Below, in pieces: positions 1 through 19,421 of a DNA stretch of 32,520 nt (the stretch's first letter is position 1; each line of letters opens with the position of its first letter). The notes under the pieces are model-generated. The model made no database searches. It was not told where the DNA came from and saw only the letters and a program-made list of their open reading frames with translations. This stretch comes from a virus. The stretch spans positions 1-32,520 of IMG/VR virus record IMGVR_UViG_3300035158_001279, one strand, 5' to 3'. The translations under genes were made by a program, and so were the position numbers.

Positions 1-801
1 TTACGTCATCTGCAGGTCGAGACTCCCGATGGGGAACTCGACGGTGTCGCCAGTACCGACCCCCTGATCTACCACATCGTTGTCGTACCAGAGCAGATCC
101 CCCAGCGTCGCCGCCGAGCAGATCGCCACACCGACGACCGTCCCCCAGCTTGCCGTCGCCTGCGGGAACTGGATGAGATGGGTGTTGTCCACCAGCCCGG
201 CAGCCGCTAGGTCCCACGTGGGGCTCGCGCCGCCGTTGGGGTTGACCAGCACCCTGGCGTAACCGCCGCCGGAGGGCTCGCTGATTGTCGAGCCGGTGTC
301 CCCATCTCCGACCGCCGCCGTGACCAGCGCCACGTAGGTGTCTGGCTTCGTATAGGACACGTTGCGGAACATCAGGTTGAGCAGGTTGTGGGCCAGCGTG
401 GTGCTGAGCTCGCCTGCCAGGTATTCGACGTAGACCTGCCCGGTGTTGACCGTCGGGGTGTTACCCGCGATCACGTCCTTTGACGTCCCGAAGGCGCCGC
501 TTGCCAGCACGTTGCCGCTGGTCAGGGCGTCCATGATCGCCCAGTGGGTTATCGTGCCCCAAGGGCCGCTGGCCTGATCGAAGGTCACAGCTGTGCTCTG
601 CGCCACCCGCCGACTGGCTGCGGCGTCGAAGGTGATCGCCTTGCGGCCGTAGCCGTTGCCCGAGGGCTCCGCCAGGCTGGTGCCTGCATCCAGCGGGTCC
701 GCCGTGCTCAGGGCCAGATAAACCGTCGCCGGCGGCGTATAGGCTGCGTTGAATACATGATCAAGCAGAACGAGTTCGCTATGATCGCTTAGACTTCCCA
801 T
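1..801 (-). CDS. Duplicated-domain phage tail fibre-like structural protein
   Basis: A 266-residue protein made of two tandem copies of one domain, roughly residues 1-130 and 131-266. Each copy has a short helical start (LSDHSELVLLDHVF; LSTTLAHNLLNLMF), then a strand block (TVYLALSTADP; DTYVALVTAA), then a matching EPSGNGYGR / EPSGGGYAR segment and a WGT motif. This pattern occurs in small phage virion proteins often annotated as tail fibre or tail-associated proteins, and it usually appears once per protein. The ATG at 801 follows a good ribosome site (GGAGG, 6 bases upstream), just after the stop of the repeat protein. As the last gene of the minus-strand tail operon in this window it is probably a tail-tip or fibre component. 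The fold and role are inferred from family resemblance and position only. Confidence 0.7.
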   Translation of the reverse strand: MGSLSDHSELVLLDHVFNAAYTPPATVYLALSTADPLDAGTSLAEPSGNGYGRKAITFDAAASRRVAQSTAVTFDQASGPWGTITHWAIMDALTSGNVLASGAFGTSKDVIAGNTPTVNTGQVYVEYLAGELSTTLAHNLLNLMFRNVSYTKPDTYVALVTAAVGDGDTGSTISEPSGGGYARVLVNPNGGASPTWDLAAAGLVDNTHLIQFPQATASWGTVVGVAICSAATLGDLLWYDNDVVDQGVGTGDTVEFPIGSLDLQMT

Positions 802-813
802 TGTGTACCTCCA

Positions 814-2766
814 CTAACTAGGGATGACGTAGACCCGGTCATCGTCGGGTGTCAGGACCCGCGCCTCGCGGGTCACCTCGTAAAGCCTGGGCTGGGGTGT
901 GACCGCCAGGACCCGGTCCTCGCTGGCCACCTCCCAGGCGCGCTTCTCAAGTACGACCGCGAAGAGCCGCGCCAGCGCCAGGGCGATGACGTCCAGCTCG
1001 GCAACGTCCGGGGTCATGCTCCGGGCAGCCATAAGGGCCGCCAGGCTGACCAGGCCGGTGTAGAAGACGGTATCGTCCGGCGTGGCTGATTGCACCTGGA
1101 TCGCCGCCGCCAGCGCGCGGATGACCGCCAGCTGGGCGTCGGGCGTGCCCGAGGCTGCCGTCGCCGCAGCCTCCAGGGCGTGGGTGACCTGCAGGACCAG
1201 GCTGTCGGGCGTCGCCGTCTTGCCTTCAGCAGCCGCTGCCAGGGTTCTCAGCAGCGCCAGCGCCGCACCGTCGGGCGTCCCCGACTGGCTGCCCAGTACC
1301 GCGGCCAACTGGCGGGCTACGTTGAGGGCTGCATCGTCGGGTGTCGCCGTTGACGCCGACGCCAGGCCCGCCAAGGCGCGCGTCACCGCAAGCGCAGCGT
1401 CCGCCGTTACGCTGCCGGCCACAAACGATCCGGCCAGTTTGAATATGAGCCCCATGAGCGCGTCCGCCGTCGCAGACTGGGTGCTAGGGGCAGCCGCCAG
1501 CTCTCGCTTGACCGCCAGCGCCGCAGGCGGTGTCTCCGACCGGGCCAGACACGACGCCGCCAGCTCGATGATGGCGGCGACAAACAGCTCGGCGTCATCT
1601 GGTGTAAGGGAAGCGCCCAACGCTGCGGCTGCCAGAGCGCGCTGCACTGTCAGCTCGGCGTCCGGCACCTGCGACTGGGCCAGGCAGGCCGCCGCCAGTT
1701 GAATCGCCAGCAGAATGTTCAGTTCGACGTCATCCGGGGCCGTAGAAGCCGAAAGCGCCGCCGCGGTGAGCGCCCGCAGCACGGCAAGCTCGCCCGAGTC
1801 CGGAGTGGCGCTGTTTGCGGCCAGCACGGCGGCCAGCGCCCTGGTCACGTCAAGGGCGACGTCCGGCGTGGCCGACTCTGCAGCCGACGTCCCCGCCAGG
1901 GCGCGGAGCACCGCCAGCACCGCGTCCGACGATTGGCTCTGAGCATCCATGACCGCCGCCAGGCCGCGCGTCACGGCAAGGCCTGCGTCGGACGTGCCGG
2001 AAGCAGCCAGCATCTGGGCCGCCAGACTGACAATGCCGGCGACCACAAGCGCGACGTCATCGGGCGTGAGACTCCGGGCCTCGAGCGCCGCGGCCAGCGC
2101 GCGAGCGATGGACAGGGCCGCATTGTCCGGGCTGCTGCTGTCCGCTGCCGCAGCCGCCGCCAGCGCCCGCCCGACGTTCAGGTCAGCGTCGGGCGTTGCG
2201 CTCTGGGCCAGGGCCTCGGCCAGCAGGGCTTTGGTGAGCGCCAGAGTGACAGCGTCCGGCGTGGTACTATCGGCAGCACCAGCAGCGGCCAGGGCGCGGG
2301 TGACGGCCAGCGCTGCGTCCGGCGTTGCGCTTGCGGCGTTGACTAGAGCGGCAAACTGGAGAACGCCTGGCGGGGCCTCCGGTATCTCGAGCGCTGCCCA
2401 GGCTACCGCAGCTCGCGCCAGCAGGCCCAGGACGGAGTTGTCGGGCGTTGCACTGGCGGACAGGCCGACGGCTGCGAGCTGGCGCGCCACGGACAGCGCC
2501 GCGCTCGGGGTGAGTGACTGGCCCAGGACCTGGGCCGCCAGCTGGACGACAGAAGCGAGCGTCGCCGTGTCCGGCGTCTCGCTGCCGGCCAACGCCGCCG
2601 CGGCCAACTGGACGATGAAGGCGAGGTTTGCAGTGTCCGGCGTCGCGCTACCGGCTAACGCGCTCGCCGCCAGCTGGTAGGTCTGGGTGACCCCCGTCTG
2701 GGACCTCGAGCTCGGCCCACGAAACCTGCACGGAGCCGCCGCCGCCAGCGGCAACCGTAGTCTCAA
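814..2766 (-). CDS. Ala-rich 22-residue repeat protein, probable adhesin C-terminal part
   Basis: Almost the whole ORF consists of about 26 degenerate copies of a 21-24 residue repeat with consensus LAA..LA.SATPD.A.LAV.RA. It ends in a different C-terminal tail of short motifs (EDRVLAV, EARVLTP, DDRVYVIPS) of the kind seen at the ends of other phage tail proteins. The nominal start is a TTG at 2766 without a convincing ribosome site. Its first 25 codons are the shifted reading of the upstream gene's beta domain, so independent initiation there is unlikely. More likely translation enters at about 2691 from the upstream frame (see the G5 run feature). The same repeat occurs four times in the ORF at 3155-4525, which ties the ORFs together. 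The repeat could form a helical solenoid or stalk. I recognise no named family, and its position next to the hub and fibre genes suggests a tail adhesin. Confidence 0.72.
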   Translation of the reverse strand: MRLRLPLAAAAPCRFRGPSSRSQTGVTQTYQLAASALAGSATPDTANLAFIVQLAAAALAGSETPDTATLASVVQLAAQVLGQSLTPSAALSVARQLAAVGLSASATPDNSVLGLLARAAVAWAALEIPEAPPGVLQFAALVNAASATPDAALAVTRALAAAGAADSTTPDAVTLALTKALLAEALAQSATPDADLNVGRALAAAAAADSSSPDNAALSIARALAAALEARSLTPDDVALVVAGIVSLAAQMLAASGTSDAGLAVTRGLAAVMDAQSQSSDAVLAVLRALAGTSAAESATPDVALDVTRALAAVLAANSATPDSGELAVLRALTAAALSASTAPDDVELNILLAIQLAAACLAQSQVPDAELTVQRALAAAALGASLTPDDAELFVAAIIELAASCLARSETPPAALAVKRELAAAPSTQSATADALMGLIFKLAGSFVAGSVTADAALAVTRALAGLASASTATPDDAALNVARQLAAVLGSQSGTPDGAALALLRTLAAAAEGKTATPDSLVLQVTHALEAAATAASGTPDAQLAVIRALAAAIQVQSATPDDTVFYTGLVSLAALMAARSMTPDVAELDVIALALARLFAVVLEKRAWEVASEDRVLAVTPQPRLYEVTREARVLTPDDDRVYVIPS

Positions 2767-3154
2767 ACTGCAGCCGCAGGTCCCCGTAGTCGGTTATAGC
2801 GTCCGCCTGCTGGGCGGTGAGCGTCTGCTCGGCCAGGGTGAAGCTGGTGCCCGGGTTGGCGTGGGTCCAAGAGGCGATTGTCGTGGTGCCCTGCATCAAG
2901 CGCACGAGCAGGGTGTAGTTCTTGTTGGTTATCGTGCGCAGATAGGTGTATCTGACAACGTGCCCCGTCGAACTCTGCGGGTCAATGAGGCTCGACAGTC
3001 CGACCTCGCAAAGCGTCAGCTGGTTGGCGCCGCTTGCGATGTAGTCTGCATCGCTGCGCGCGGCCTCGTCGAGGACGCTCCACAGCGTCGTGCCGGTCGA
3101 GGGCGACCAGGCGCCGGCTGTTACGTCGCTCGAAGGGCGTGCGTACTGGGCCAA
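2648..3154 (-). CDS. Beta-type domain segment between two repeat blocks
   Basis: A 168-codon ORF starting at TTG 3154, directly after an in-frame TAG of the preceding ORF. Residues 5-135 form a domain clearly paralogous to the C-terminal part of that ORF. Both have an RPS.D start, a LDEA/IDEA..DDDY block, a V.YTYLR / LHYRYQR strand, LTAQQADAITDYGDL / LTAEQADSITSYGDL, and LRLQF / LYLRF. The alternation of strands suggests a beta-sandwich carbohydrate- or receptor-binding module. The last 14 residues after PDG look like a misread of the next frame, in which the repeat protein resumes with VTQTYQLAA. I read this ORF as the middle part of one long adhesin, or as a reinitiated product: a G-rich stretch ahead of the TTG could act as a weak ribosome site. 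Confidence 0.65.
   Translation of the reverse strand: MAQYARPSSDVTAGAWSPSTGTTLWSVLDEAARSDADYIASGANQLTLCEVGLSSLIDPQSSTGHVVRYTYLRTITNKNYTLLVRLMQGTTTIASWTHANPGTSFTLAEQTLTAQQADAITDYGDLRLQFETTVAAGGGGSVQVSWAELEVPDGGHPDLPAGGERVSR
2691..2695 (-). other. G5 run at frame change between beta domain and repeat block
   Basis: On the minus strand the upstream frame reads GAC GGG GGT CAC. Skipping one G gives GAC GGG GTC ACC and joins ...LEVPDG directly to VTQTYQLAA. That mirrors the SSGQTYQLAA junction in the upstream ORF. A one-base homopolymer indel, natural or from sequencing, or +1 slippage on GGG would explain it. Confidence 0.6.
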
Positions 3155-3157
3155 CTA
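3155..3157 (-). other. In-frame amber codon between paralogous adhesin domains
   Basis: The codons read GTG TAG TTG with no frame change on either side, and homologous beta domains lie on both sides. It may be a true stop with TTG reinitiation, a readthrough site, or a point mutation in a once continuous gene. TAG is used as an ordinary stop by other genes here (for example at 814, 7354, 14215 and 15892), so genome-wide TAG reassignment is not supported. Confidence 0.6.
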
Positions 3158-4525
3158 CACCCCCGCGGCGACGAAACGCAAGTAAAGGTCCCCGTAGCTG
3201 GTTATGGAATCCGCCTGCTCTGCGGTCAGCGTCTGGTCGGCCTGGGCAACCGACGCGCCGATCGCGTTGTGCTGCCAGGAGCCGATTAGCGTCCCCAGGC
3301 TGGCCTCGCTGGCGTAGCCCTGCCGGAGCTCCACGGTGAGGTTGATCGTCGGCGTCTCGCCCAGCCGCTGGTAGCGGTAGTGCAGCCTGTGGTCCGCCGA
3401 GACTTGAGGATCCTGGCCGGCCTGCAGCTTGACCACGACCGGGCTGCTCGCAGGCGCGGCCTCGCTCTGCATATAGTCATCGTCGTTGGGCGCGGCCTCG
3501 TCTATTGTCTGGTAGAGGTTTGAGGCCCCGCCGGCCCGGGTGGTCCACTGGCCCGTGTAGCTGTCCGCGCTGGGCCGCAGCAGCTGGGGTATTGCCAGGA
3601 CCGCGTCATCGGGCGAGATGGAGCCCGCCAGCACCGCCGCCGCAAGCGCTCGCGTCACCGCCAGGGCCAGGGCGTCCGGCGTGACCGAGCTGCTGGAAGC
3701 GGCGCCGCTTACGGCCCTCAGCACCGCCAGCGTGGACACGTCCGGCGTGGTCGTTGCCCCGACCGCGACCCCACCGAAAGAGCGCAGCACCGCCAGCACG
3801 GACGCCGTGGGCGTGCCGGAGGCCGCCAGGGCCAGGGCTGCCAGCTGGTAGGTCTGGCCGCTGGACTGGTGCGGGCCGATCAGCATCCCGTCATCGTTGA
3901 TAATCAGCTGGTCGAGGTAGAAGGTGCCGGACGTGCCGGCGTCAATGCTCTCGGTGGCGCCGAACTGCATGGCCGTCTTGCTGTCGAAAACATCGTAGAT
4001 GTCATAGACTGCGCCGCTGTCGTAGACCTGGGTGCCGTCAATCCACATGGCCAGGCGCCCATCGCTGGCCGTCGCGCTGGAAGCCCCCTCGATCAGCACC
4101 TCGATGTAACAAGGACCGTTGGGAATCTCCTGGTAGCCGGTGTTCTGGCGCGTATTCGAGTCATCGTAGACGTTGGCGAAGACCGCGTAGCCGCTGCTGA
4201 AGCTGTCGTACCGCGCAAAGCTCACATAGGTGAGAATGTAGGGGCTGCCGCCGTGGATGCGGAAAATCGTGTGGCCGCCGTAGTTATTAGGCAAGTAGAT
4301 GTCGTTGGGGTCGATATAGAACCGATAGCGCAACGTCCTGCCGGGGATACTGATTGCCTTCTGCCCGTAGATTGCGACCGTGTCATCAATGACGCACTGC
4401 AGGCCATAGCTGGTGCCGCCCAACGCAGCAGCAGCCGTAACGGACAAATCCCCGCCGTCGGTGACAGTGGAATCGTATTCGGAGAGGTCCCCGGCCTCGT
4501 GGTTAATGTCTATCAGAATGCTCAT
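3155..4525 (-). CDS. LamG/jelly-roll-like tail adhesin with four Ala-rich repeats
   Basis: A 456-residue protein. Residues 1-215 resemble a concanavalin/LamG-like jelly roll, with a strand-rich domain containing a LRYRFYID strand, an LAMWIDGTQVYDSG strand pair and a closing FYLDQLIINDDG strand. Residues about 222-310 hold four copies of the same 22-residue Ala-rich repeat that fills the gene at 814-2766. Residues about 312-456 are a second beta domain, paralogous to the next ORF. It ends at a TAG at 3155-3157 followed without a gap, in the same frame, by the next ORF. The start ATG overlaps the stop of the upstream 98-residue gene (ATGA). Location after the baseplate hub suggests a host-surface or glycan-binding tail protein. 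The specificity is unknown. Confidence 0.75.
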   Translation of the reverse strand: MSILIDINHEAGDLSEYDSTVTDGGDLSVTAAAALGGTSYGLQCVIDDTVAIYGQKAISIPGRTLRYRFYIDPNDIYLPNNYGGHTIFRIHGGSPYILTYVSFARYDSFSSGYAVFANVYDDSNTRQNTGYQEIPNGPCYIEVLIEGASSATASDGRLAMWIDGTQVYDSGAVYDIYDVFDSKTAMQFGATESIDAGTSGTFYLDQLIINDDGMLIGPHQSSGQTYQLAALALAASGTPTASVLAVLRSFGGVAVGATTTPDVSTLAVLRAVSGAASSSSVTPDALALAVTRALAAAVLAGSISPDDAVLAIPQLLRPSADSYTGQWTTRAGGASNLYQTIDEAAPNDDDYMQSEAAPASSPVVVKLQAGQDPQVSADHRLHYRYQRLGETPTINLTVELRQGYASEASLGTLIGSWQHNAIGASVAQADQTLTAEQADSITSYGDLYLRFVAAGV

Positions 4526-6169: not shown

Positions 6170-7345
6170 TTAGCTGGGCTGCCCTATTGCCATCCACGGC
6201 ACGGCCACGTTCTCACTGGTGACTCGGGTCGTGTTTCTCCATAGTGTGAGAATGAACCCGGTCGTGGACTCGTCATCGGGCTCGGCCTGATAGACCTCGC
6301 CGTTCTGGTTGTTGCTGAACGGCGCCCCAACCATGATGAACGGGATATTGAAGTAGGCACTGGGGAAGGTGACTGCGTAGGTCCCGCTGTATGCGCTTGC
6401 GGCGATGTTTACCCAGGCCATACCTATCTGGATCGCCACGCCGGCGGTGTTGTAGGTGTACATGGTTGAGCCGGCGCCAGACCAGTTAGCTTGCCCGGTG
6501 CTGATCCTCTGCCGCAATATGGGCACGCTCTGGCTGATCTTTTCCCAGTTCACCGAATTGTCCGCCAGCTTGTAGTTAGTCACGGCACCATCTGCCAGGG
6601 CGTTGGTGCCAAGCTGTGCCCCGTCGCCGCCGATGTGGTCGTGGCTGTCGCCGCCAGTGACCAGCTGCGCAGCGACAGCGCTTGCGAGCTTGGCCTCCAG
6701 GATCGTGAGGTCGGCCAGCTTGTCGTTGGTCACGGCGCCGGCGCCCAGCTTGGTGTTGGTCACGGCGCCGGTGCCGATCTTTGCCTCTATCACCCCTCCG
6801 TCGGCCAGCATGTCGCTGGTCACGGCCCCGCCGGCCAGCATGGCCGAGTCCACCTCGATGTTTGGGTGCAGGTAGACCCGCTCATTGACCAGGCTGGTGA
6901 GGTCGCCTGCCGGCGTCACCGTCACCCGCGCCAGCGGTATCTCCCAGATCACGCCCTCGGACTGGGTGAGGCTGGGCGCGCTGCCGCTGCCCTCGGTCCC
7001 CTCGACCACGGCTATGCGCACCGTCTGGGCCGTCCAGTCAGCCCGCAGCACGATCCTGTCGATCCTGTTCTGTGACGACGGCGTGTTCAGGGCGATTGAT
7101 ACCGTCGAGGTGTTGTAGTAGGGGAAGCCGTAGACGTAGGCCGCGCCCGCGGCGATATTGACCGTCGTGCCGCCAGCGTCGCTGACCACCATGTCGCTGT
7201 CCACGCCCTTGAGGACCCCCTCGTCGGTCGCGTCCCCGACAAAGGTCTTCCGCAGCCAGTTGTAGACGAGCTCGGCCATTGTGTAACCCGTAGCGGTGCC
7301 GTCCCCGACCCCCGTCGTCGACCACATAAGACTGTTTTCTGCCAT
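6170..7345 (-). CDS. Tail fibre / receptor-binding protein
   Basis: A 391-residue protein. Residues 1-150 are a phage baseplate-attachment type N-terminus (GVDSDMVVSDAGGTTVNIAAGAAYVYGFPYY... IDRIVLRADW), seen in many tail fibres. Residues about 165-260 are short phased repeats (MLADGGVIEAKIGTGAV, TKLGAGAVTNDKLADL) that typically form an intertwined trimeric beta-helical shaft. The C-terminal 110 residues form a globular beta domain, likely the receptor-binding head. I chose the ATG at 7345 because AGGGG lies 5 bases upstream and the gene then follows the Dit stop closely. A GTG eight codons earlier would overlap Dit and has no better site. The protein is a structural partner of the neighbouring Dit and hub. 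Host range is probably set here and by the adhesin ORFs. Confidence 0.82.
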   Translation of the reverse strand: MAENSLMWSTTGVGDGTATGYTMAELVYNWLRKTFVGDATDEGVLKGVDSDMVVSDAGGTTVNIAAGAAYVYGFPYYNTSTVSIALNTPSSQNRIDRIVLRADWTAQTVRIAVVEGTEGSGSAPSLTQSEGVIWEIPLARVTVTPAGDLTSLVNERVYLHPNIEVDSAMLAGGAVTSDMLADGGVIEAKIGTGAVTNTKLGAGAVTNDKLADLTILEAKLASAVAAQLVTGGDSHDHIGGDGAQLGTNALADGAVTNYKLADNSVNWEKISQSVPILRQRISTGQANWSGAGSTMYTYNTAGVAIQIGMAWVNIAASAYSGTYAVTFPSAYFNIPFIMVGAPFSNNQNGEVYQAEPDDESTTGFILTLWRNTTRVTSENVAVPWMAIGQPS

Positions 7346-7353
7346 AGTTGCCC

Positions 7354-8217
7354 CTATATCCCGAGCCACCTCGGGTAGTAGTTAAGATAGATCTCTGTAT
7401 CCCCGTCTACCGACGTGCCCGTCACCATGATGTCGTTCCGGCCCTCGTCGGCCTCCGGGTGCGGCGCCAGGTGGAAGGTCGCCAGGTCCGAATCGTTTGA
7501 CAGCTCTGCGATCTTGTTCGCGCCCGCCTTGTCCGTGACCGTCTTGTAGCCATAGCGGCAGTCGATGTCGTAATAGTCCCCGTTGCCGATGGTGCAGCCC
7601 GTAAAATCAAGTTTCTCGCCCGTCGAAAGGTTCCAGATGACCGGGTCGGTGATCGGGCCGCCGATGCGGATGCGCCGCGGCAGGGCCAGGACGTTGCCCG
7701 TATACTGAATCGGCACCACCTGGTCCATCGTCGAAGCCCCGACCGTGAAGGGCACCGCCAGGGGCACTGCCGTGCCGCTGCCGCCGCCGGCCAGAGCGAA
7801 GGCGACCATCCGGCCCACTGGGTCGTAGAAGGTCGGGTCCGGCGCTTGAAAACGCAGCGCCACTAGCTGCGCCGCCCACTCCTTGCGGGCGTCGTGGGGC
7901 AGCGGGGCGTCAAGCGCCTTGCAGTCGAGCTGCCGCTTGCTCCCGTCGTCCAGGGTGAACAGCAGCGACAACGCGGCGCCCGGTGATAGGTAGGTCTGCA
8001 GGGACGTCCGCTTCGTGTACAGGTCCTGGCGGTCGGCGCCCTCAAGCACCGCGAGCAGGGAGAACACCCGCGGGTCCAGCCGGTAGCCGACGTCGGTCTG
8101 GCCGTGCTGCATCGGCCCTCTCTCGACCAGCCGGTGCAGCGGCGCTAGGCCCAGCCCGTCGTGCGCCACGACTTTCAATGCCAACCTATGAGAACCGACG
8201 ATAAGCTCGGCGTTCAT
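7354..8217 (-). CDS. Distal tail protein (Dit)
   Basis: A 287-residue protein of the siphovirus distal tail (Dit) type, which forms a hexameric ring joining the tail tube to the tip. The N-terminal belt domain shows the usual pattern: strand, then DPRVFSLLAVLEG and DLYTKRTSLQTYLSPG, then FTLDDGSKRQLDCKALDAPL and the LVALRFQAPDPTFYDP segment, which is very characteristic of Dit proteins. The C-terminal galectin-like domain starts at about residue 160 and includes PRRIRIGGPITDPVIWN. It lies directly after the tape measure gene, one base past its TGA, and before the fibre and hub genes, the standard order. Confidence 0.88.
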   Translation of the reverse strand: MNAELIVGSHRLALKVVAHDGLGLAPLHRLVERGPMQHGQTDVGYRLDPRVFSLLAVLEGADRQDLYTKRTSLQTYLSPGAALSLLFTLDDGSKRQLDCKALDAPLPHDARKEWAAQLVALRFQAPDPTFYDPVGRMVAFALAGGGSGTAVPLAVPFTVGASTMDQVVPIQYTGNVLALPRRIRIGGPITDPVIWNLSTGEKLDFTGCTIGNGDYYDIDCRYGYKTVTDKAGANKIAELSNDSDLATFHLAPHPEADEGRNDIMVTGTSVDGDTEIYLNYYPRWLGI

Positions 8218-16371: not shown

Positions 16372-17070
16372 TTACTGCTCCCAGGGCGAGGGCATGTCCA
16401 GCGTCTTCGCCCCGCCGTTCTCGCTGGGCGTCTGGAGCCCGCGGCCGCCGTAGTTCGACGGCGCGAGCGACCGCTCCAGCTTGCCCAGTACGCAGAGGTC
16501 CATCGCCTCCAGCTCCTCTTTCGAGAAAGCGCAGCGGCTGTTGCCGGCCAGCCGCTCGACGACCGCGGCCTTCTGGTCCGCCTCCTGGGCCGCCAGCTTC
16601 TCGGCGCTGCCCAGGACGGCCTCGATGCCGCCGCGCTGCTCCAGCGCCGCCGCCAGGTCGAGCAGGATCTGCGGTAGCTGGACGGCTGCCTGGGCCTCTG
16701 GCGCGGCCGCCGGCTCAGGCTCGGCGACGGGCTCGGGCTCGACGGTCGGCTCTGGCTCTGCGGCCGGCTCTGGATCTGCGGTGGGCGCGACATCTGCGAT
16801 CGGCTCGGGTTCTGCTTGAGGCGCAGCCGCCGGCTCGGGTTCGACGACGGGCGCAGCGCCCGGCGCGGCGCCCAGCAGCTTGTCGAGGGCGCTGTCGGGC
16901 ATGGCCTGTAGCTCTTCCTGGTCGAAAGGGTTGCTCTCTTTCGCCAGCAGTGCAGCGACCTTTTCTTCCTTGGTCATACTGTCCTCCTGATACTGATTGA
17001 CGATGCTCAGCAGGGCCTCGCCGGTCTGGCGCAGGATGCCGAGTGCGGTTAGTGCGGTCTGTGCGTTCAT
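16372..17070 (-). CDS. Nested scaffold protein from internal start(s)
   Basis: In-frame second product of the protease gene. The ATG for Met201 (17068-17070) is preceded by AAAGGAG at 17078-17084, and the ATG for Met232 (16975-16977) by AGGAGG at 16983-16988, 5 bases away. Two near-perfect ribosome sites in front of in-frame ATGs are unlikely by chance inside a coding region. Products of about 232 and 201 residues would contain only the Pro/Glu-rich spacer and the helical scaffold region. The lambda C/Nu3 and related phages use exactly this design to make excess scaffold over protease. The use of both starts is inferred. Confidence 0.7.
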   Translation of the reverse strand: MNAQTALTALGILRQTGEALLSIVNQYQEDSMTKEEKVAALLAKESNPFDQEELQAMPDSALDKLLGAAPGAAPVVEPEPAAAPQAEPEPIADVAPTADPEPAAEPEPTVEPEPVAEPEPAAAPEAQAAVQLPQILLDLAAALEQRGGIEAVLGSAEKLAAQEADQKAAVVERLAGNSRCAFSKEELEAMDLCVLGKLERSLAPSNYGGRGLQTPSENGGAKTLDMPSPWEQ

Positions 17071-17670
17071 GTGTGGCTCCTTTCCGTCGCTCTGATTGAG
17101 TCGTGGCGCGCCGCAGCCGTCGGCCCAGCTGCACTCGCCGATCCCGCCCGGCAGCAGCGCCAGGTGGTCGGGCCGCAGATAGCGCGATACGCCCTGGTAC
17201 TCTTTCCCGTTGAACACGCCGGACCCGGGCTCCCGCTGGCGCCAGTAGGCCGTCGAGACGTCGAGCTGCCCGCCGTTCTGCACGGCGTTCAGCACCTGGG
17301 CCCCTGGATCGCCCGCGGCTTTCGCCTTCTCGATGTCCAGCCACACCTCGGGCACCAGCGCGCCGGCTTCGTTCACTTTGGTGTTGAACAACCAGCCCAC
17401 GCGCTGCTCCTCCCAGATGCCGGGCTCGTTGACTGAAACGGGGTTGCCGTCTGCGTCGTGGGCGTGGAAGAGCGTCACCGGTCTTCCGTCCCAGGCGCCG
17501 TGGAAAGTGGCGATTTCTTCCGCCGGCATGAGCTCGCCTTTGAGGACCATCGGCCTGAGAGCGACCGCCGGGAAGACCAGATACTCGCGGCCTTCGTAGC
17601 TCTCGCGCCTCACGTCTGGGGTGACTTTGTTGCAGACGACGCCCAGCCGGGCGTTGGTGTTGTCCTGCAT
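16372..17670 (-). CDS. Prohead protease fused to scaffold (DUF2213-like N-terminus)
   Basis: A 432-residue protein. Residues 1-185 resemble the DUF2213 prohead protease group: EYLVFPAVALRPMVLKGELMPAEEIATFHGAWDGRPVTLFHAHD, then VGWLFNTKVNEAGALVPEVWLDIEKAK and NGGQLDVSTAYW, with the His of TLFHAH a candidate catalytic residue. Residues 201-432 look like a scaffold: a helical start, then a long Glu-Pro-Ala stretch (about 276-335), a coiled-coil-like helix at 338-390 and a tail with SPSNYGGRG-like sequence. The ATG at 17670 overlaps the stop of the previous gene (TAATG). Two internal ATGs carry strong ribosome sites, so the scaffold part is probably also made alone, as in lambda C/Nu3. Confidence 0.82.
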   Translation of the reverse strand: MQDNTNARLGVVCNKVTPDVRRESYEGREYLVFPAVALRPMVLKGELMPAEEIATFHGAWDGRPVTLFHAHDADGNPVSVNEPGIWEEQRVGWLFNTKVNEAGALVPEVWLDIEKAKAAGDPGAQVLNAVQNGGQLDVSTAYWRQREPGSGVFNGKEYQGVSRYLRPDHLALLPGGIGECSWADGCGAPRLNQSDGKEPHMNAQTALTALGILRQTGEALLSIVNQYQEDSMTKEEKVAALLAKESNPFDQEELQAMPDSALDKLLGAAPGAAPVVEPEPAAAPQAEPEPIADVAPTADPEPAAEPEPTVEPEPVAEPEPAAAPEAQAAVQLPQILLDLAAALEQRGGIEAVLGSAEKLAAQEADQKAAVVERLAGNSRCAFSKEELEAMDLCVLGKLERSLAPSNYGGRGLQTPSENGGAKTLDMPSPWEQ

Positions 17671-18794: not shown

Positions 18795-19421
18795 TTAGCG
18801 TATCGCATAACGTAGAGTGCAGCGGCAGTTGCCTTTGCACGATCTCTGGCCATCGCCTGGTGTCTGCCCCCCATACGGATCATCGGCTGTCCTCTGCCAG
18901 CCCAAACCAGCAAAGGCGCTGCAGCCGTCGCACGGGTTGGTCGAGTGGACTTCCCACAGCACGTGCGTCACGTCGCTTGCGGCGTTGGCCTCCCAGCGGG
19001 CGCCCTCGTAGGCGCCGCGGGCCGCGTTGCCGTACATCCGCGCCCTAGCGATGATCTGCCCCTCTGACAGGTCCTTCGTCACCAGGTCCGACACGAAGGT
19101 GTCCAGGTAGCGGTACTGCTTGCCGAGGCGTCCGCCGATCTTGCCCCAGTCCGCCGGCGTCATGTTCTGCAGCCCGCCGTGGCCGACCAGGTACTGGCGG
19201 ATGTGCTCCGCCTTCAGCTCCGCCCGCAGTGCCTCCCGGAACTGGTTGGGCGTGATCTGCTTATGGGCCACCGCCCAGCCTAGCGACGCCGCGCGCCGCT
19301 GGCAATCCTCGAGCGAACGCTCCATCGCCCGCTGGACCACCTGGGCGGCGACGAACCGCCCGCGCTCGCTGCGGAAGCGGGCCGCAGCCGCGTCCCAGTA
19401 CCAGGCCGGCTGCTCAGGCAT
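18795..19421 (-). CDS. Minor head protein (SPP1 gp7-like)
   Basis: A 208-residue protein. The helical N-terminal two thirds include an AAARFRSERGRFVAAQVVQRAMERSLEDC stretch. The C-terminal part is the SPP1 gp7/F-type head morphogenesis signature: HVLWEVHSTNPCDGCSAFAGLGW, then PGDGQRSCKGNCRCTLRY, giving C-x2-C and C-x3-C-x-C Cys pairs likely to bind metal. It is at the expected place right after the portal gene, with an 8-base overlap. A few copies are thought to enter the capsid with the portal. Confidence 0.88.
   Translation of the reverse strand: MPEQPAWYWDAAAARFRSERGRFVAAQVVQRAMERSLEDCQRRAASLGWAVAHKQITPNQFREALRAELKAEHIRQYLVGHGGLQNMTPADWGKIGGRLGKQYRYLDTFVSDLVTKDLSEGQIIARARMYGNAARGAYEGARWEANAASDVTHVLWEVHSTNPCDGCSAFAGLGWQRTADDPYGGQTPGDGQRSCKGNCRCTLRYAIR

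Follow-up and report, generated by a model that had tools for sequence, protein, structure and literature searches.

Organization of the locus

The window analyzed here is an entire IMG/VR virus record of 32,520 bases (66% G+C), a single uncultured contig. Profile matches on its minus strand identified siphophage-type genes for terminase, portal, capsid, decoration, tail completion, and major tail proteins, together with tail chaperone, tape measure, Dit, fiber-like, and Gp37-like tail protein genes on the same strand. The terminase is closest to those of phages of Thermobifida and Streptomyces, with 33 to 40% identity. The Gp37-like gene is followed by two small ORFs, by the ORFs A, B, and C considered below, and by a two-copy Gp80-like fiber gene. 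The latter (1-801, minus strand) carries two Gp80 domains of podophage GP4 fiber I (Pfam PF23140, E 7.5e-65, two stretches) and is classed as a head protein by its PHROG despite this Pfam match. Elsewhere in the window, a fiber-like protein with a gp53-like C terminus (6170-7369, minus strand) contains a 30-base tandem repeat at 6715-6844 that encodes AVTN.KL-type units; 18-base tandem repeats at 16696-16815, within an ORF with a protease-like N terminus (16372-17670), probably encode a low-complexity linker; and a tRNA-Arg (gcg) called by ARAGORN at 19333-19421 (minus strand) shares bases with an ORF at 18795-19421 and is possibly spurious.

Three consecutive ORFs at 814-4525, as reported in the preliminary description, were borne out, all on the minus strand: ORF A (3155-4525, 456 amino acids), ORF B (2648-3154, 168 amino acids, TTG start), and ORF C (814-2766, 650 amino acids). 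ORF A comprises an N-terminal region, about four 22-residue repeats (3593-3850; repeat profile E 2.4e-8), and a C-terminal truncated jelly-roll domain (3158-3592) before a natural TAG stop. Its N terminus, previously called LamG-like, had no Pfam match at E≤1 and no relevant PDB sequence match. ORF C consists of an array of about 26 units of the same repeat (987-2685; consensus LAA..LA.S.TPD.A.LAV.RA) and a C-terminal tail (814-986; ..EDRVLAV..DRVYVIPS) for which no match was found. The sharing of one repeat between ORFs A and C was upheld: the array length in ORF C fits about 26 units, about four more lie in ORF A, and ORF C displays a periodicity of 22 (and 21) residues, with a match fraction of 0.248 against 0.148 ± 0.011 in 5,000 shuffles (z = 9). 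The array is not uniform, as a non-repeat segment, RAAVAWAALEIPEA (2374-2415), follows its fourth unit.

Among the loci searched, the repeat profile matched only ORFs C and A. A pairwise comparison gave a weak resemblance to an array in L066, a relative described below (E 0.003), and the alignment of the repeat was too poorly conserved for scanning. When used as queries against viral contigs, ORFs A and C and the truncated domain of ORF A returned no relatives, and tblastn against GenBank phages gave no match for any of the three ORFs, a truncated domain, or an array. Five relatives (L007, L012, L013, L050, and L066) carry, after the same jelly-roll domain, arrays of wholly different sequence and similar period (about 20 to 22 residues), as if the stalk repeat had been replaced or rewritten between phages.

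Domain B (2690-3154, minus strand), which starts at the TTG with MAQYARPSSD, is predicted to be a full CBM-like jelly roll. When folded alone with AlphaFold2 (41 sequences), it gave a mostly beta model with a mean pLDDT of 95.1 and a pTM of 0.89, on which DSSP placed the domain's own last strand, VQVSWAELEV, at residues 142-151 (2702-2731, minus strand). VIA structural matches of this model included 2zew CBM16 (Z 11.1) and CBM4-2 (Z 10.7), with 127 to 129 residues aligned, and other galactose-binding-like jelly rolls also matched in structural comparison; a fold family missing from the VIA lists was not counted as evidence. The predicted fold is like that of CBM4/CBM16-like jelly rolls (VIA Z 10 to 11 over about 125 to 130 of 155 residues), whereas the family described here has no sequence match to them and also occurs naturally in a form cut short before its final strand. 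Sequence searches with the domain in Pfam, PHROGs, NCBIfam, and PDB gave no match, and among 19 members none had a Pfam family of the CBM or galactose-binding-like kind at E 0.1. The last domain of ORF A is a paralog of domain B, at 43% identity, in agreement with the two paralogous beta domains of the preliminary description. This widespread family was represented by 19 close relatives of domain B, then by 80 loci found with an alignment, and by 15 loci in genome assemblies of bacteria and archaea. The domain is also present in the archaea-assigned contigs L112, L115, L116, L122, and L124 (Nitrosotenuis, Thermoplasmatota, Euryarchaeota, Nanoarchaeota, and Nitrosopumilus).

ORFs A and B lie in one frame with the TAG between them, and the TTG of ORF B directly follows it. 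Free-standing relatives and those of the B type start at the position of this TTG (MAQ[FY]ARP), and many relatives terminate at the stop position of ORF A. Since relatives begin at the start of ORF B and others end at the stop of ORF A, we regard A and B as two genes and the TAG/TTG as a natural gene boundary. The junction of ORFs B and C differs in kind. In full-type relatives, the domain runs through VSWAELEVPD into arrays of repeats of about 20 to 22 residues in one open frame throughout; in the window, a frame change falls in a G run just past the last strand of domain B (2690-2697). The corresponding place is open in these relatives, which argues that B and C form one protein there and that this record is broken at about 2690-2697. 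The interruption is thus not conserved among relatives, as that of a programmed frameshift or readthrough site would be. The frame change is apparently private to this record and may stem from misassembly or from mutation. The search for intact homologs, which had been suggested previously, therefore supports B and C as one broken protein. The nearest relative, L002 (1-2176), has a frame break of its own, which lies within the truncated domain that its upstream stalk gene encodes and at a site different from that in the window.

Truncated domains and orphan strands

The more important feature of the locus, absent from the preliminary description, is the strand that ORF A lacks and the spare one on the stalk. 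In the alignment, the family falls into full domains and a class that ends exactly before the last strand. ORF A belongs to the latter: its domain ends ..LYLRFVAAGV at the stop, was classed as truncated with 7 residues to the stop, and lacks the last strand VSWAELEVP. As in an acceptor that lacks one beta-sandwich strand, the truncated members end before strand 142-151 of the full-domain model.

The missing strand is carried by another protein encoded nearby, singly in a stalk or in arrays, from a single copy up to about two dozen. Ten copies of units like RRARVTWAELEVPNAP are present in a nearby gene of L014, and fifteen in L009; the spacing of strands within arrays is almost always 16 residues. 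In array-type relatives, the truncated domain is free-standing (about 145 residues) and lies upstream of the tandem-strand protein, while some truncated loci have a single strand copy inside an otherwise unrelated repeat array. One protein of L009 (5623-8769) bears two strand arrays, of 10 and 5 copies, on either side of a long middle region.

Orphan strands were scored in six-frame scans with a 14-residue weight matrix that was trained only on the own strands of 33 full domains. At a threshold of at least 13 bits, orphan strands were detected in 29 of 38 truncated clusters compared with 1 of 42 full-only clusters (Fisher 8e-13), and at 16 bits or more in 26 of 38 compared with 1 of 42 (Fisher 1.4e-10), counts that exclude clusters fetched via the array itself and are inflated by shared ancestry. 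The single match in a full cluster is antisense and a chance match, and reversed proteins of the counted loci gave no match at 16 bits. Orphans lie on the strand of the truncated gene, nearly always in a downstream gene and mostly 0.5 to 3 kb away. No orphan at 13 bits was seen in 9 of the 38 truncated clusters. These nine include L002, the nearest relative of domain B, which has none at 13 bits even across its whole 22.5-kb contig; VSMARIRLP, considered in L002 as a degenerate orphan strand, scores 1.2 bits and was dropped. Extended stretches of the L051, L058, and L095 contigs yielded weak candidates of about 13 bits that are unconvincing alone, because reversed proteins reach 14.9 bits there; the 13-bit count takes in only that of L051. 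L114, in which the truncated domain ends a 431-amino-acid protein of the isolate Ferruginivarius sediminum, is a possible cultured source and has no orphan strand within 8 kb.

The converse query used arrays alone and returned 47 loci, 44 of them with at least two strands. A truncated domain gene lay upstream in 31 of these 44 (24 clusters of domain sequence), and a full domain in none of the 44. For the other 13 arrays, which lack any domain, the contig ends no more than 2.1 kb upstream; every array with enough upstream DNA (31 of 31) therefore follows a truncated domain. An earlier array search gave the same picture.

In the window, the segment RAAVAWAALEIPEA within the repeat array (2374-2415, minus strand) is the best last-strand match outside domain B. 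It scored 18.3 bits, and the next of 45,519 14-mers scored 9.3; none of 2,000 shuffled versions of ORF C reached its score. We propose this orphan copy as a putative docking site for the truncated domain of ORF A.

Natural fusions and predicted strand docking

In L040, L084, and L066, a truncated domain and a strand occur in one ORF, with about 220 to 240 domain-like residues between them. L052 instead encodes a free truncated domain and then a second ORF composed of a relative of this insertion domain (E 6.5e-56) and a strand array, so that two ORFs of L052 are fused in L040 and L084 in the manner of a Rosetta stone. The L040 fusion was modeled with AlphaFold2 from an alignment of truncated domains and four fusion-type rows, with zero full-type domains. 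In the model, the insertion has a pLDDT of 24 to 59, and the distant strand (residues 368-377) lies in a sheet with a pLDDT of about 94. CBM structures aligned with this model over about 125 to 140 residues, in ranges that run from residues 1-7 to 377-381 and reach the end of the target domain; one alignment of 127 residues spans model residues 3 to 378, where ranges denote first and last aligned residues only. Because CBM structures align across to about residue 378, the distant strand appears to occupy the place of the last strand. The evidence that it would complete the domain in this intramolecular case is strong but indirect. For a strand supplied by another polypeptide, the support is genetic co-occurrence, the predicted docking being within one fused chain.

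Proposed assembly of two tail proteins

We propose that the locus encodes two tail proteins, A and B-C. B-C begins with a complete CBM-like jelly roll and continues as a stalk of about 26 22-residue repeats, its frame being broken after the jelly roll in this record; A consists of its N-terminal region, four such repeats, and a C-terminal jelly roll without the final beta strand. The B-C stalk bears one spare final strand between repeats, and by donor-strand complementation, the open groove of the domain of A would close on this strand and clip A to the side of the stalk. In relatives, pairing would be multivalent, as tandem strands at 16-residue spacing would hold several truncated domains in a row. 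Taken as a whole, with A docking onto the stalk of B-C and multivalent docking in relatives, we consider this explanation probable. We infer docking between separate proteins, with one domain per strand, and a role in host-surface binding; the tail locus, the CBM-like fold, and the repeat stalks together suggest a host-surface adhesin. Some array-type pairs, among them those of L009 and L014, adjoin a long candidate portal-like gene, so other relatives may decorate heads.

How far docking extends to this particular phage is a separate matter. The orphan strand of the window is degenerate, at 18.3 bits compared with 33.3 for the strand of domain B itself, and is weaker than those of relatives; judged by this sequence, the chance that protein A docks at 2374-2415 is about even. 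Donor-strand docking may operate elsewhere in the family, with this phage representing a decaying or mis-assembled copy without it, a reading that fits the weak strand, the isolated frame change in a G run, and a record that is a single uncultured contig. We hold it to be possible and rather doubtful, as structural genes elsewhere in the window match their respective families and show no obvious frame breaks, and the orphan strand retains V, W, L, E, I, and P at conserved places.

A further explanation would dispense with docking altogether: the strand motif at the domain's end, once duplicated in tandem, may have become an independent stalk of self-folding 16-residue beta repeats, and the truncated domain, stable alone, may be a mere neighbor by descent. 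Relatives in which unrelated arrays of 20- to 22-residue units follow the same domain indicate that this type of locus readily makes repeat stalks. We nonetheless find this unlikely, given that truncated domains of many clusters end precisely where the strand is missing, that single orphans, which are unable to form a solenoid, are also almost confined to truncated domains, and that the distant strand docks in the L040 fusion model.

The preliminary description had joined A, B, and C into a single restored adhesin of 1,236 residues and had itself named homologs that end and begin at the TAG/TTG junction as the observation against it; such homologs exist, so its beta domains, repeat stalk, and tail locus stand and its one protein is not supported. 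That one adhesin is interrupted by the TAG and the frame change, to be restored by recoding or broken by mutation, is highly improbable despite the frame shared by A and B across the TAG, the repeat common to A and C, and the intact B-C relatives, because relatives start at the start of B and stop at the stop of A, where the TAG is a natural gene end, and a conserved B/C frame change occurs in no relative.

Donor-strand docking thus remains our preferred explanation. The proposal shares with known donor-strand systems (chaperone-usher type I pili, type V pili, and TasA) an incomplete beta-sandwich completed by the strand of another polypeptide. TasA fibers of Bacillus subtilis, in the description of which beta-sandwiches are noted to be suited to donor-strand complementation (PMC9674648), are the nearest described principle. 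In pili and TasA, however, each subunit gives its own terminal strand to the next to form a homopolymer; here, the putative donors are internal, single or in up to about two dozen tandem copies, and belong to a stalk protein distinct from the acceptor; the latter is a CBM-like jelly roll, and the setting is a phage. The open-access literature on donor strands together with phages or tails yielded pili, TasA, and vaccines, and no phage assembly of this kind.

Engineered systems offer other parallels: SunTag arrays recruit copies of a partner through repeats of one short peptide, and in SpyTag/SpyCatcher, a beta domain that has been split is made whole by its own strand. The present system, by comparison, would be natural and viral, and no covalent bond is suggested. 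Cellulosome cohesin-dockerin scaffolds likewise present tandem docking sites that bear carbohydrate-active modules, whereas the docking unit here would be a ten-residue strand rather than a folded cohesin.

If correct, the proposal would describe donor-strand complementation of a viral, heteromeric, and multivalent kind that is undescribed in the open-access papers found. That phages of uncultured hosts use a strand-tag system of this type, with many copies of truncated CBM-like domains along a tandem-strand stalk, seems to us fairly likely, and a natural strand-tag with many-site arrays would be a useful tool for protein display. The pairing suggests adhesive domains clipped to stalks in a beads-on-a-string fashion, and phages would then be able to vary both number and kind of adhesive domains on their fibers through the count of ten-residue strands in the stalk gene alone.
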